Positions 9,276 through 14,043 of a stretch of 42,436 nucleotides of DNA are shown here, piece after piece; the first letter of the stretch is position 1; the number at the start of each line of letters is the position of its first letter. The position numbers and the translations under genes were made by a program. Source of the stretch: an uncultured Synechococcaceae cyanobacterium (GTDB lineage Bacteria > Cyanobacteriota > Cyanobacteriia > PCC-6307 > Cyanobiaceae); the NCBI GenBank assembly GCA_902536065.1, contig CACAVZ010000001.1, positions 133,518 through 175,953 of the forward strand, read 5' to 3'. The notes beneath the pieces were generated by a model. That model searched no databases. It saw only the letters and a program-made list of their open reading frames with translations, and was not told where the DNA came from.

Positions 9276-10022
9276 ATGGCTCTATCTAGTCAAACTAAAG
9301 AAACAATTCTTGTCGCAGATGACGAAGCGAGTATTAGAAGAATTCTTGAGACGCGTCTCTCTATGATTGGTTACAAAGTAGTTACTGCAAGTGATGGTAA
9401 AGAGGCACTAAAGTTATTTAAAGATTACGAGCCTGATTTAGTAGTACTCGATGTAATGATGCCCAAATTAGATGGCTATGGAGTTTGTCAAGAATTAAGG
9501 AAAGATTCTGATGTTCCTATTGTGATGTTAACTGCATTAGGAGATGTTGCTGATAGGATAACAGGCTTAGAATTAGGCGCTGATGATTATGTAGTAAAAC
9601 CATTTAGTCCTAAGGAATTAGAAGCAAGAATTAGGTGTGTGCTAAGAAGAATTGATAAAGAACAAATTCCTGGAATGCCTAATTCAGGATTAATTTTGGT
9701 TACTGATATAAAAATTGATACAAATCGAAGACAAGTTTTTAAAAGTGATGAGAGAATTAGATTAACTGGTATGGAATTTAGTCTGTTAGAACTTTTGGTA
9801 AGTAGGTCAGGCGAGCCATTTAGTAGAGGAGAGATTTTAAAAGAGGTTTGGGGATATACACCTGAGAGACATGTAGATACAAGAGTAGTAGATGTTCACA
9901 TATCAAGATTAAGATCAAAACTGGAGGCTGATCCAGCAAATCCTGAACTTATATTAACAGCGAGAGGCACGGGATATCTTTTTCAAAGGATTGTTGATAT
10001 TGCACCTTTTGAAGGTAAATAA
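9276..10022 (+). CDS. rpaB: Response regulator RpaB (Ycf27)
   Basis: This 248-residue OmpR-family regulator has a receiver with D15, D16, phospho-acceptor D59, T86 and K108, and a winged-helix DNA-binding domain ending in ARGTGYLFQR. The opening ETILVADDEASIRRILETRLSMIGY is diagnostic for RpaB/Ycf27. RpaB, partnered with the kinase NblS/Hik33, controls high-light and photosystem genes and is essential in model cyanobacteria (established knowledge). It starts at ATG 9276. Its stop is followed immediately by the plsX ATG, so light-stress regulator and lipid synthesis genes probably share a transcript. Confidence 0.96.
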   Translation: MALSSQTKETILVADDEASIRRILETRLSMIGYKVVTASDGKEALKLFKDYEPDLVVLDVMMPKLDGYGVCQELRKDSDVPIVMLTALGDVADRITGLELGADDYVVKPFSPKELEARIRCVLRRIDKEQIPGMPNSGLILVTDIKIDTNRRQVFKSDERIRLTGMEFSLLELLVSRSGEPFSRGEILKEVWGYTPERHVDTRVVDVHISRLRSKLEADPANPELILTARGTGYLFQRIVDIAPFEGK

Positions 10023-11441
10023 ATGGGCAAAGAAACTATACAAAAAATTAATAAGCCCAGAGCTATCAGAAGATTAGTGATTTGGTACAAAAGAAACTCG
10101 GCAGTAACTTCAATAGTAGATACTGCAGCTAGTTCTGCAGTTACCGCTAGTAATGTAGCGGGAAATGTAGTGTCCGGTGCTGGATCTGTTGTTAGTACAG
10201 CAAGTAATGTTGCAAGTAATGTTGCAGGTAATGTTGCAGGTAATGTAGTCTCAAGCGCTGAATCCGTTGTGAATACTGCTAGTAGTGTAGTTTTAAATGC
10301 TAGTTCCATAGCTAAAAATACATTACAGCCATTAGTTTTTGACCCATTAAAAAGATTACAAAATAACGATAATATTTTAGATAAGGAAGTGGATTCAAAA
10401 TCTAAAAGAATTTGGATTGCAGTTGATGGCATGGGTGGAGATTATGCTCCCGGGCCAATACTAGAAGGATGCCTTGAAGCCATTAGCAGATTTCCTATCA
10501 ATATAAAGTTTGTTGGCAAAATTGAAAAAGTTAAAAATGCAGCAGAAAAAATTGGTTTAGTAGAATTACTTGAAAAAGAAATAGAAAATAATCGTCTTGA
10601 ATTAATTGATAGTGGAGATCCTGTTGGGATGAATGAAGAAGCTACTGCAGTCAGGAAAAGGAAAAACGCAAGTATAAATGTTGCAATGGATTTAGTAAGG
10701 AATAATAAAGCGCAAGCTGTTTATTCAGCTGGTAATTCAGGAGCAATGATGGCTTCAGCCATATTTAGAATTGGAAGATTGAAGGGTGTTGAAAGACCTG
10801 CTATAGGGGCATTATTCCCGACACGGGATCAAACTCGTCCTGTATTAGTGTTAGACGTTGGTGCAAATACTGATTGTAAACCTTCTTATCTTCATCAGTT
10901 TGCTCTTCTAGGTAATATTTATGCAAAAGATGTCTTACAAGTAAAAAAACCAAGAATTGGTCTATTAAATATTGGAGAAGAAGAATGCAAAGGTAATGAT
11001 TTATCTCTTAAAACATTTGAACTTCTATCCAATGAAAAAAGTTTTGACTTTGGAGGTAATTGTGAAGGTCGAGATGTTTTGTCAGGTAGTTTTGATGTAG
11101 TAGTCTGTGATGGTTTTACTGGTAATATATTATTAAAATTTCTTGAGTCTGTTGGCGGTGTTTTATTAGATATTTTAAGATCTGAGCTTCCAAGAGGAAG
11201 GCGAGGAAAAGTTGGCTCAGCTTTTTTAAAAAGTAATCTAATAAGAATAAAGAAAAGGTTAGATCATGCAGAACATGGTGGCGCTTTATTACTTGGAGTT
11301 AATGGTATTTGCGTTATTGGCCATGGCAGCAGTAAGTCTTTATCCGTAGTTAGTGCTCTTCGCTTGGCCCACTCGGCAGTAAACCATAATGTGATGGAAA
11401 ATTTAAATCAACTTCAAAAGCTTCAAGTTTTAAATTCTTAA
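10023..11441 (+). CDS. plsX: Phosphate acyltransferase PlsX with long repetitive N-terminal extension
   Basis: From about residue 130 (IWIAVDGMGGDYAPGPILEG) to the end this is a normal PlsX of about 343 residues, which converts acyl-ACP to acyl-phosphate for phospholipid synthesis. The first 128 residues are extra. They comprise a basic opening (RAIRRLVIWYKRN, 13-25), a low-complexity block of Ala, Val, Ser, Asn and Gly (about 27-100), and LQPLVFDPLKRLQNN (101-115). The ATG at 10023 abuts the rpaB stop, and no frame break separates extension and core. The extension could bind membrane as an amphipathic helix, which is inference. It is followed by fabH, fabD and plsC. Confidence 0.95.
   Translation: MGKETIQKINKPRAIRRLVIWYKRNSAVTSIVDTAASSAVTASNVAGNVVSGAGSVVSTASNVASNVAGNVAGNVVSSAESVVNTASSVVLNASSIAKNTLQPLVFDPLKRLQNNDNILDKEVDSKSKRIWIAVDGMGGDYAPGPILEGCLEAISRFPINIKFVGKIEKVKNAAEKIGLVELLEKEIENNRLELIDSGDPVGMNEEATAVRKRKNASINVAMDLVRNNKAQAVYSAGNSGAMMASAIFRIGRLKGVERPAIGALFPTRDQTRPVLVLDVGANTDCKPSYLHQFALLGNIYAKDVLQVKKPRIGLLNIGEEECKGNDLSLKTFELLSNEKSFDFGGNCEGRDVLSGSFDVVVCDGFTGNILLKFLESVGGVLLDILRSELPRGRRGKVGSAFLKSNLIRIKKRLDHAEHGGALLLGVNGICVIGHGSSKSLSVVSALRLAHSAVNHNVMENLNQLQKLQVLNS
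10200..10247 (+). repeat. Four 12-base tandem repeats inside plsX
   Basis: Four copies of a 12-base unit, GCARGTAATGTT-like, run head to tail at 10200, 10212, 10224 and 10236. The first two are identical, the third differs by one base, and the fourth by one more at its end. Related partial units occur at about 10147-10170. Each unit encodes Ala-Ser/Gly-Asn-Val, so gain or loss of a unit keeps frame. This is consistent with recent slippage expansion. Confidence 0.9.
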
Positions 11442-11493: not shown

Positions 11494-12501
11494 TTGGAAG
11501 AAAAAAAGTTCAGTCAGATTGGAGTCTCATTTAAAGGAAGTGGAAGTTATGTGCCTGATCAAATTCTGTCTAATCAAATAATTAGTCATAAGGTAGATAC
11601 GAGTGATGAATGGATAAAAACTAGAACAGGTATTTCTGAGAGAAGAATTTCTAATTTAGAAGATAATGTTACTGATATGGGTTACAAGGCTGCACTAAAT
11701 GCGATTGAAAAAGCTAATTGGGATATTAAGACAATTGATTTGATCGTTTTAGCTACTTCTACTCCTCATGATTTATTTGGTTCGGCGCCGTCTATTCAAG
11801 CTAAATTGGGTGCTTCTAATGCTGTAGCTTTCGATTTAACTGCAGCATGTAGTGGTTTTTTATTCGCCTTAATAACCGCTTCGCAATTTTTAAAAGGAAA
11901 TAATTTCAAACGGGCTGTAGTTATTGGAGCAGATCAATTATCAAGCTTTGTTGATTGGAATGATAGAAGAAGCTGTATTCTTTTTGGAGATGGTGCGGGC
12001 GCATTAGCAATTGAATCCATAAATGAATTTGATAATTTTATAGGTTTTGATATGAGAACTGATGGAGAAAGGGGTTGTTTTTTAAATCTCCCATCAAAAA
12101 ATAGTATGGATTCAATAATTGATAATATTCATTTCATAAGGGGAGGTTTTTCACCAATCCAGATGAATGGTCAAGAAGTTTATAAATTTGCAGTAAGAGA
12201 AGTGCCGATAATTCTTAAAAAGTTGTTTAGAAAAACGAACTATAGTTCTGATCAAGTTGATTGGCTCGTATTACATCAAGCTAATCAAAGAATATTGGAT
12301 TCTGTAGGAGATAGATTGAAAATTCCTAAAGCAAAAATTCTCAGCAATTTAGAAAAATATGGTAATACTTCAGCGGCAACAATTCCTCTAGTGATGGATG
12401 AGGCCATTAGAAATAATAGAATTAAACAAAATGATATTATTGCTATCAGTGGTTTCGGTGCTGGGCTAAGTTGGGGGGCAGCTCTTATTAAATGGGGCTA
12501 A
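11494..12501 (+). CDS. fabH: 3-oxoacyl-ACP synthase III
   Basis: This 335-residue enzyme starts fatty-acid synthesis by condensing acetyl-CoA with malonyl-ACP. The catalytic triad is visible: C119 in TAACSGF, H261 in HQANQR and N291 in NTSAATIP. It ends with the usual FGAGLSWGAALIKW. The start is TTG at 11494. No ATG or GTG lies between the plsX stop and the conserved GVSFKGSGSYVP, so TTG is the best supported start. It follows plsX by 52 bases and precedes fabD by 19, in a lipid-synthesis operon. Confidence 0.95.
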   Translation: MEEKKFSQIGVSFKGSGSYVPDQILSNQIISHKVDTSDEWIKTRTGISERRISNLEDNVTDMGYKAALNAIEKANWDIKTIDLIVLATSTPHDLFGSAPSIQAKLGASNAVAFDLTAACSGFLFALITASQFLKGNNFKRAVVIGADQLSSFVDWNDRRSCILFGDGAGALAIESINEFDNFIGFDMRTDGERGCFLNLPSKNSMDSIIDNIHFIRGGFSPIQMNGQEVYKFAVREVPIILKKLFRKTNYSSDQVDWLVLHQANQRILDSVGDRLKIPKAKILSNLEKYGNTSAATIPLVMDEAIRNNRIKQNDIIAISGFGAGLSWGAALIKWG

Positions 12502-12520: not shown

Positions 12521-13417
12521 ATGAATGTAGCATGGGTATTCCCTGGACAAGGTTCTCAGAAAATTGGAATGGCAAAACAAATTGAAAATTTGCCAAATAC
12601 AAAGGAGAGGTTTAGCTATGCTTCTGAAATATTTGAGAGGAATTTATTTGAAATTTGTGAGTTAAACACTCAATCAACGAATCCTTTGAGTGATCTGAAT
12701 GATACGAGAAATACACAAATCTGTCTTTTTTTAGTTGAATCGATTTTGTTAGATGCCTTAAAGGATAATGGTTTTAAACCAAACATTGTTGCTGGGCATA
12801 GTCTTGGAGAAATAACGGCATTATATTGTGCGGATGTTTTTTCATTTGAAGATTGTATATCACTAATAAAAGTAAGATCTCAATTAATGGTGAATGCTGG
12901 GCAAGGATCTATGGCAGCAGTTATTGGTTTTGATAGAAATCAACTGGATTTATTAGTTAAAAAAATTGATGATATTGTGATTGCTAATGACAATAGCTCC
13001 TCCCAAGTTGTCTTGTCAGGATCTAATAAAGCCTTAGATAATTTATCGAGAGAAATTTCGTGTAAAAGATTTCTTAAATTAAATGTTTCAGGCGCATTTC
13101 ATTCGCCATTTATGAATAATCCTTCAATAAAATTTTCTGAGTATTTAAAACAGATAAACTTTAAAAGTCCTTCTTTTCCTGTGATAAGTAATTATGAACC
13201 TTCACTTTGTAGAAATCCTGATGAGCTTAAAATTAGATTAGAAAATCAAATGTGTAATGGAGTTAGGTGGCGAGAAACTATGGATTTAATGGCAAAAGAT
13301 TGTGAACTTCATATTGTTGAAATTGGCCCCTCAAATGTACTTAGCGGTTTAGCAAAAAGACATCTGAAGGATGTAAAAATTTCTCAAGTTTCATCTTCTG
13401 ATCAAATAACTTATTAA
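12521..13417 (+). CDS. fabD: Malonyl-CoA:ACP transacylase
   Basis: This 298-residue enzyme moves malonyl groups from CoA to acyl carrier protein. It has the opening FPGQGSQ (7-13), nucleophile S94 in GHSLGE, R119 in KVRS, and H194 in GAFHSPFM. It starts at ATG 12521, 19 bases after fabH, and ends five bases before plsC. The order plsX-fabH-fabD is a classic bacterial lipid operon. Identification is secure. Confidence 0.96.
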   Translation: MNVAWVFPGQGSQKIGMAKQIENLPNTKERFSYASEIFERNLFEICELNTQSTNPLSDLNDTRNTQICLFLVESILLDALKDNGFKPNIVAGHSLGEITALYCADVFSFEDCISLIKVRSQLMVNAGQGSMAAVIGFDRNQLDLLVKKIDDIVIANDNSSSQVVLSGSNKALDNLSREISCKRFLKLNVSGAFHSPFMNNPSIKFSEYLKQINFKSPSFPVISNYEPSLCRNPDELKIRLENQMCNGVRWRETMDLMAKDCELHIVEIGPSNVLSGLAKRHLKDVKISQVSSSDQITY

Positions 13418-13422
13418 TTAGA

Positions 13423-14043
13423 ATGCGAAATAATGTTTTTCAAAAATTAATTTATCAATTAGTTAGCAAAATATTTGTCTTACCTATCTATAAATTTGTA
13501 TTAAAGGGTCATTTAATAGGTAGTGAAAACATTCCGCAAAAAGATGCTTTTATAATGGTTTCTAATCATGGTTCTTTACTTGATCCTCCTTTGCTGGGTC
13601 ATGCTCTTGGACGCAATATTTCTTTTATGGCGAAGGCAGAACTTTTTAAAATACCTCTTCTAGGCTCTGTTATCACGGCTTGTGGAGCGTATCCTGTAAA
13701 AAGGGGAATTGCTGATAAAAATACAATTAAAATAGCATGTAAAAAATTATCAAATGATAATTGTATTGGAATTTTTATTGACGGCACTCGTCAAAAAAAT
13801 GGGCGAGTTAACAAGCCAAAGCAAGGCGCAGCATTATTAGCTTTTAAAAATCAAAAATTATTATTGCCTGTAGCAATAGTTAATACACATAGACTAATAA
13901 AATTTAAATTCTGTATTCCTTTATTTTCAAAAATTGTTATTAAAGTAGGAAAACCTATTCAACCTCCACAAAGCTCATCAAGAGATGATCTAAATTCTGT
14001 AACAATGCTCCTTAAAGATAATATTAATAATTTGATTGGATAA
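13423..14043 (+). CDS. plsC: 1-acyl-glycerol-3-phosphate acyltransferase family protein
   Basis: This 206-residue protein belongs to the PlsC family, which adds the second acyl chain to make phosphatidic acid. The catalytic NHGSLLD (H49 and D54) and the glycine-rich block KRG (93-95) are present. The third motif reads FIDGTR (118-123) where the family usually has F-PEGTR, so Glu is replaced by Asp. A hydrophobic segment near the N-terminus suggests membrane association. It is the last gene of the plsX-fabH-fabD-plsC run and its stop lies four bases from the convergent tsaB stop. Family is sure; exact acyl preference is unknown. Confidence 0.88.
   Translation: MRNNVFQKLIYQLVSKIFVLPIYKFVLKGHLIGSENIPQKDAFIMVSNHGSLLDPPLLGHALGRNISFMAKAELFKIPLLGSVITACGAYPVKRGIADKNTIKIACKKLSNDNCIGIFIDGTRQKNGRVNKPKQGAALLAFKNQKLLLPVAIVNTHRLIKFKFCIPLFSKIVIKVGKPIQPPQSSSRDDLNSVTMLLKDNINNLIG

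Follow-up and report, generated by a model that had tools for sequence, protein, structure and literature searches.

Background

PlsX must reach the membrane, and in Bacillus it is described as a peripheral membrane enzyme anchored by an amphipathic peptide (PMC6702220). For B. subtilis, two reports place this peptide, which carries membrane localisation, in a 13-residue fragment of the hairpin tip (residues 250-262) (PMC6702220, PMC10146087). The exchanges L254A, L254D, and L258A send the enzyme to the cytosol, and L254E, L258E, and A261D keep its localisation, which was explained by snorkelling side chains (PMC6702220). Other genera show little conservation of this peptide, a point that its finders leave open (PMC6702220). 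In cyanobacteria, PlsX of Synechocystis was localised to the thylakoid (PMC6878006), and thus a cyanobacterial PlsX does sit on a membrane.

The solved PlsX proteins of B. subtilis (6A1K, 1VI1) and Enterococcus faecalis (1U7N) belong to the same core family and fold as the protein studied here. The Bacillus chain starts at the core and has a short hairpin-tip anchor, whereas the PlsX encoded in the DNA analysed here (42,436 nucleotides from an uncultured Synechococcaceae cyanobacterium, hereafter the window) has an arginine at the position of Leu254 and a 128-residue N-terminal extension. A model for such long PlsX proteins already exists in the databases (NF010419; PRK13845, putative glycerol-3-phosphate acyltransferase PlsX, 440 positions), and its description names the enzyme only. 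In the open-access papers surveyed by title and abstract opening, neither a PlsX N-terminal extension nor its function is described.

PlsX core and N-terminal extension

The plsX ATG directly abuts the TAA of the upstream response-regulator gene, and fabH-, fabD-, and plsC-like frames lie downstream (Table 1). The window belongs to a Prochlorococcus-group genome: 80 kept loci match this PlsX over its length with 90-96% identity, most of them titled Prochlorococcus and a few 'uncultured Synechococcaceae'. Matching genes of full length are present in the cultured strains MIT 9201, MIT 9302, and MIT 9107.

Table 1. Features at the plsX locus (positions refer to the window, residues to PlsX).
Feature	Residues	Position	Strand	Remarks
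Response regulator		9276-10022	+	Name from reading of translation
plsX		10023-11441	+	ORF, 472 aa
Variable lead (MGKETIQKINK)	1-11	10023-10055	+	dN/dS 0.172
Basic-aromatic block (PRAIRRLVIWYKRNSAVTSIVDTAASSAV)	12-40	10056-10142	+	dN/dS 0.067
Ala/Val/Ser/Asn/Gly repeat	41-99	10143-10319	+	dN/dS 0.058; most likely a weakly amphipathic helix; length varies between relatives
End motif (LQPLVFDPLKRLQ), near-invariant	101-113	10323-10361	+	dN/dS 0.008 (residues 100-113)
Loosely constrained linker	114-128	10362-10406	+	dN/dS 0.315
PlsX catalytic core	129-472	10407-11438	+	Pfam and fold match
Hairpin tip (LPRGRRGKVGSAF)	389-401	11187-11225	+	Aligned to B. subtilis 250-262
fabH-like frame		11494-12501	+	Name from reading of translation
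fabD-like frame		12521-13417	+	Name from reading of translation
plsC-like frame		13423-14043	+	Name from reading of translation

The Pfam family FA_synthesis covers the whole core (residues 132-459, model positions 3-323/324, E 1e-102), and the scores for TIGR00182 (365.4 bits, cut-off 243.4) and NF010419 (887.7 bits, cut-off 729; best stretch residues 65-472) exceed their cut-offs. Alignments of solved PlsX proteins to the window protein begin at residues 130-132, in agreement with the initial annotation, which had placed the start of the core at about residue 130. A fold search with the full model returned PlsX in its top three rows (Z 41.6-44.4), followed by phosphotransacetylases at about 25. 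The closest solved fold is B. subtilis PlsX 6a1k (6a1k_B; Z 44.4, rmsd 1.5, 322 residues aligned), and the hairpin site of the model holds two predicted helices (residues 364-388 and 393-413), as in the PlsX fold with its helical hairpin. Judged by profile and predicted fold, the core is that of a normal PlsX (phosphate acyltransferase), with a predicted activity converting acyl-ACP to acyl-phosphate.

The 128 residues preceding the core comprise a basic-aromatic block RAIRRLVIWYKR, a length-variable Ala/Val/Ser/Asn/Gly repeat, and a near-invariant LQPLVFDPLKRLQ. Residues 1-25 have a net charge of +7, and A, V, S, N, and G make up 88% of residues 34-99 (94% with Thr included). In an alignment of 145 extensions, L18, W21, Y22, R24, and V28 are invariant, and L101, Q102, P103, V105, D107, P108, L109, R111, L112, and Q113 are conserved in at least 90% of the sequences. 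This alignment holds a random 60 of the 82 extensions from the window's genus, minus a copy of the window's own, and leaves out L237; another alignment lacked L129 and L134, which the start pattern had missed. Several features read from the translation alone were borne out, namely the conservation of the basic opening and of the FDPLKRLQ end, the approximately 70 residues rich in Ala, Val, Ser, Asn, and Gly, and the recurrence of Val or Ile/Leu at residues 45, 49, 56, 63, 67, 71, 75, 82, 89, and 96, all ten of which are Val or Ile.

Among close relatives (89 distinct out of 92 sequences), dN/dS is 0.058 in the repeat vs. 0.054 in the core. By this codon comparison, the repeat is under as much constraint as the core and purifying selection acts throughout the extension, whose most constrained part is the end motif region.

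Helix prediction and periodicity

AlphaFold2, applied to the extension only with the 145 aligned extensions, produced one helix at residues 11-100 and a short helix at residues 108-113 with moderate confidence (mean pLDDT 66, pTM 0.25; block pLDDT about 60-81), whereas in the whole-protein model residues 26-124 have a pLDDT below 50. The structure prediction proposed in the initial annotation therefore yielded a helix for the extension on its own and low confidence in the context of the full protein. Disorder without an amphipathic face, which had been named as the outcome contradicting a lipid-binding helix, describes the extension only as far as this low pLDDT goes, as an amphipathic face exists.

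The hydrophobicity spectrum of residues 27-99 has a significant helical peak at 99 degrees (p = 2e-4 vs. shuffles), as anticipated from the spacing of the valines, and that of residues 41-99 peaks at 98 degrees (p 8e-4); the helical moment of residues 12-40 alone is not significant (p = 0.16). The same shuffle test gave p <0.01 in 47 of 50 segments, these being 50 out of 55 after five were set aside as shorter than 36 residues or empty by pattern. Of 135 distinct segments of at least 25 residues, 131 peak within 94-106 degrees (scan 60-180 degrees), with a mean of 99.65 degrees, corresponding to 3.61 residues per turn. The four exceptional segments peak at 76-82 or 127.5 degrees. Outside the window's genus, helical periodicity is found in 69 of 73 segments.

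Within residues 25-100, 16 of the 20 V/I/L deviate from the hydrophobic axis by no more than 90 degrees, and 26 of the 30 N/D/E/K/S by more than that. The single continuous stripe opposite an Asn/Ser face that had been described for this protein is thus nearly realised, apart from a few strays. Ala (49%) and Val (33%) dominate the nonpolar face and Ser, Asn, Gly, and Thr the polar face, and the helix as a whole has 3% charged residues, a mean hydrophobicity H of 0.30, and a mean moment of 0.25. Periodicity and model together indicate that the extension is most likely one long, weakly amphipathic alpha helix spanning about residues 11-100. Searches of solved structures with the extension gave no convincing relative (best E 0.2, an outer-membrane protein), and Pfam at E up to 10 returned no family besides FA_synthesis; the low complexity of the sequence weakens these searches, including the one for perilipin. 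Outside PlsX, the full protein also weakly matches a chain named 'M protein' over residues 103-180 (E 0.0028).

Distribution and whole-turn spacing

PlsX was found in 282 of 300 genomes of the window's taxonomic family, presumably the picocyanobacteria with Prochlorococcus, marine Synechococcus, and their relatives, and in 193 of 194 genomes of the class. All 51 family genera with readable N-termini have an N-terminal extension (hand tally of 59 genera; three gave no match, the N-terminus was cut or broken in three more, and two were unread). In a tree of the core, calculated without most near-identical loci of the window's genus and without rows whose core is shorter than 330 residues, an N-terminal extension occurs in 89 of 89 family rows vs. 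0 of 45 other rows, and the family rows form a single group with support 100. Neither the basic block nor the end motif was found in these 45 rows or in 108 other loci. The compared sequences thus define the extension as a trait of one taxonomic family, and the protein as an otherwise ordinary enzyme to which this lineage has added a conserved, helix-forming N-terminus. A search at E up to 10 found no second copy of the extension in the window's own genome (assembly 70.7% complete).

The 89 family rows comprise 79 full extensions, six short ones (one of which, L224, merely lacks LQP), and four with a RIRRIRR-type block. Neither the short nor the RIRRIRR forms group with the full extensions in the core tree, in which the deepest fork is unresolved and for which the tree program warns of possible long-branch attraction of the RIRRIRR branch; judging by this branching, the block may have arisen before the repeat. 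The family sits on a long stem branch, with 2.12 changes per column. In one genus (L138, L145, L149, and L169), a strongly basic block RRAIRRIRRIRRLSR (HRIRRIRR in L149) occurs with no repeat. In another genome (G049), the PlsX match is split into two pieces (L238 and L240) with 124 bases between them; their coordinates place them in different frames, reflecting either an assembly error or a frameshift.

Between the WY[RK][RK] block and LQPL, the spacing takes 20 distinct values from 14 to 94 residues. In 132 of 137 segments, and for 16 of the 20 lengths, it deviates by at most 0.4 residue from a whole number of helix turns, with a best period of 3.62 (periods 2.5-8 scanned) and an R(3.6) of 0.75 over the 20 distinct lengths, a value reached by none of 20,000 random length sets. 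This analysis draws on 184 family loci out of the 193 whose core start could be read; the other nine lack one of the motifs (four RIRRIRR-type, four short, and one without LQP). With the segments of the window's genus removed, whole-turn spacing holds in 71 of 75 and the best period is 3.64. Part of this regularity is expected, since the repeat is itself built of units of approximately four and seven residues. In 1,500 runs, no simulated unit-duplication walk with steps of 4 and 7 attained the observed concentration, and walks with steps of 4, 7, 11, and 18 did so in 1.3% of 1,500 simulations. With or without a contribution of unit duplication to the spacing, the repeat unit is helix-phased. 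Seen over nearly 50 genera, the whole-turn spacing records with unusual clarity, in evolutionary terms, a helix missed by full-protein prediction.

Variability of the hairpin tip

Aligned to 1vi1/6a1k, Arg393 of the window PlsX falls on Leu254 and Lys396 on Lys257, and the hydrophobic residue that a Bacillus-type anchor has at the Leu254 site is thus absent. The Leu254 counterpart is Arg in all 171 family loci, about half of which belong to one genus, and in all 89 tree rows. In other Cyanobacteriia, a bulky hydrophobic residue occupies this site in 71 of 78 distinct readable loci (L 26, W 20, I 16, V 5, and M 4; the others are A 1, T 3, and K 3, with R 0); the tip was unreadable in 18 of 96 distinct other loci, 16 of them outside the class, plus L205 and L304. 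The six loci among these 78 with Lys (3) or Thr (3) at the tip have no extension, which weakens the case for an anchor moved from the tip to the extension. Across the core, the family shows 27 diagnostic sites and seven sites with a lost hydrophobic residue. In the family, residues 268-269 (window 10824-10829) are Lys/Arg followed by Asp, at sites where other Cyanobacteriia mostly have hydrophobic residues.

The lineage with the extension is hence also the lineage whose tip became basic, a correlation among sequences that suggests a relocation of the anchor. The tip swap is not necessarily tied to the extension, because it represents one event on a long stem branch with many diagnostic sites. 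Nor does Arg393 imply lost tip binding, since B. subtilis PlsX is reported to tolerate L254E (PMC6702220); an Arg tip may still bind the membrane because Arg, too, can snorkel.

A putative N-terminal membrane anchor

With slightly better than even confidence, we propose that the extension is an added N-terminal membrane anchor of PlsX in this family. The helix, opened by the basic-aromatic block, closed by LQPLVFDPLKRLQ, and loosely linked to the normal PlsX core, would most likely fold on the thylakoid or plasma membrane. There, the Arg/Lys block would contact anionic head groups, Trp and Tyr would sit at the membrane interface, and the shallow Val/Ala stripe would fill packing defects. The anchor would keep PlsX where acyl-phosphate must pass to PlsY. 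It may act alongside the hydrophobic hairpin tip or in part take its place; in this lineage, the tip has lost its Leu254-type residue. We infer membrane binding, the membrane involved, and any replacement of the tip from these features. The basic-aromatic block would be a likelier first membrane contact than the repeat. The amphipathic segment comprises 76 residues in the window and only 25-43 in many relatives, and without the block such a short repeat would be a weak binder, because its nonpolar face has few large residues and because perilipin 4 is reported to need more than 66 residues for droplet targeting (PMC5889406).

The initial annotation had likened the extension to the repeat helices of perilipins and synuclein. 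This holds for the weak moment and the single face: the helices of perilipin 4 and alpha-synuclein are likewise described as long, weakly hydrophobic, poor in aromatic residues, low in moment, and close to 11/3 periodicity (PMC5889406). The moment reported for perilipin 4, the weakest lipid-surface helix known, is 0.257 vs. 0.25 here, values that are roughly comparable given a different program and helix angle (PMC5889406). The likeness does not extend to charge, as 15% of perilipin 4 residues are charged vs. 3% in the PlsX helix with its nearly uncharged polar face, nor to length, as the perilipin 4 repeats are described as free of indels between them (PMC5889406), whereas the PlsX helix varies in length among relatives. 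Furthermore, the PlsX helix is attached to an enzyme, and the resemblance to both proteins lies in the putative way of working; the profile and solved-structure searches, weak on such sequence, showed no homology. In its uncharged Ser/Thr/Gly face, the helix presumably resembles the ALPS curvature sensors.

A clade combining an Arg tip with a constrained added helix makes the anchoring question directly testable. As an account of the family's origin, a transfer of the anchor from the tip to an N-terminal amphipathic helix whose length may change only by whole turns is tentative and rather doubtful. If this account is correct, bacteria would have a lipid-packing helix built into the first step of phospholipid synthesis, through which the recruitment of PlsX could follow the membrane's state.

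Alternative functions of the extension

Instead of binding lipid, the two extensions of a PlsX dimer, or those of several dimers, could pack against each other via the Ala/Val stripe as a dimer or oligomer device that scaffolds enzymes. The small residues dominating the nonpolar face would suit tight helix packing, PlsX is reported to be a dimer (PMC6702220), 7-residue units are common in the segments, and at the heptad angle (102.9 degrees) the spectral power reaches 0.78-0.86 of the peak in 4 of 10 long segments outside the window's genus, where heptads may thus be present. In contrast, the window's own segment attains 0.13 of its peak at this angle, compared with 0.96 at the 11/3 angle, which disfavours a heptad coiled coil for this protein. 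For the 72 segments of at least 54 residues, which come mostly from one genus, the corresponding values are 0.26 and 0.91, and almost no charged residues lie beside the stripe, so that we regard packing as unlikely, although it may take the variant form of a right-handed 11-residue coil.

We see a comparably small chance that the block and LQPLVFDPLKRLQ dock onto a partner (e.g. acidic acyl-ACP, PlsY, or FabH), with the helix serving as a stiff arm that fixes how far apart and in which phase they lie. Positions conserved in at least 90% of the 145 extensions lie mainly in these two end motifs, LQPLVFDPLKRLQ has the lowest dN/dS (0.008), and whole-turn spacing preserves the relative face of block and end motif. 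The constraint on the repeat, which in close relatives equals that of the core, is however beyond the need of a bare spacer.

A low-complexity linker grown by repeat slippage and mostly just tethering the basic block would account for the indels of 4, 14, 18, and 22 residues between close relatives, the pLDDT below 50 in the full-length model, and the existence of short and RIRRIRR forms without the repeat. Given the low dN/dS of the repeat (0.058), the helix stripe in 131 of 135 segments, and the whole-turn spacing, a free linker was rejected as the main reading, and this explanation appears quite improbable.

Translation of the extension

That the extension is not made, with translation starting near the core, is highly improbable: the sole in-frame start near residue 129, where the initial annotation had considered an internal start, is a GTG at residue 123, codons 2-131 contain no ATG, purifying selection runs along the whole extension, and a candidate start codon precedes the basic block in 88 of 88 distinct family sequences (TTG 67, GTG 12, ATG 9). 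The extension is very probably a real, translated long helix. For translation-start proteomics of Prochlorococcus, we found no relevant publication in the open-access literature.

In close relatives, the ATG abuts the upstream stop codon in all 78 loci read (TAA 76, TAG 2; two of 80 were unread). Outside the window's genus, 71 of 99 family loci have a TTG at a shared LxPK-like site as candidate plsX start. This TTG lies just upstream of the basic block (L112-L170, L212-L234), and gene callers may miss it. Opposite the extension, the window has an antisense open frame of 149 aa (window 9983-10432, - strand). In 76 of 78 loci from close relatives, an antisense frame likewise stays open along almost all of the extension, possibly as a by-product of codon make-up.
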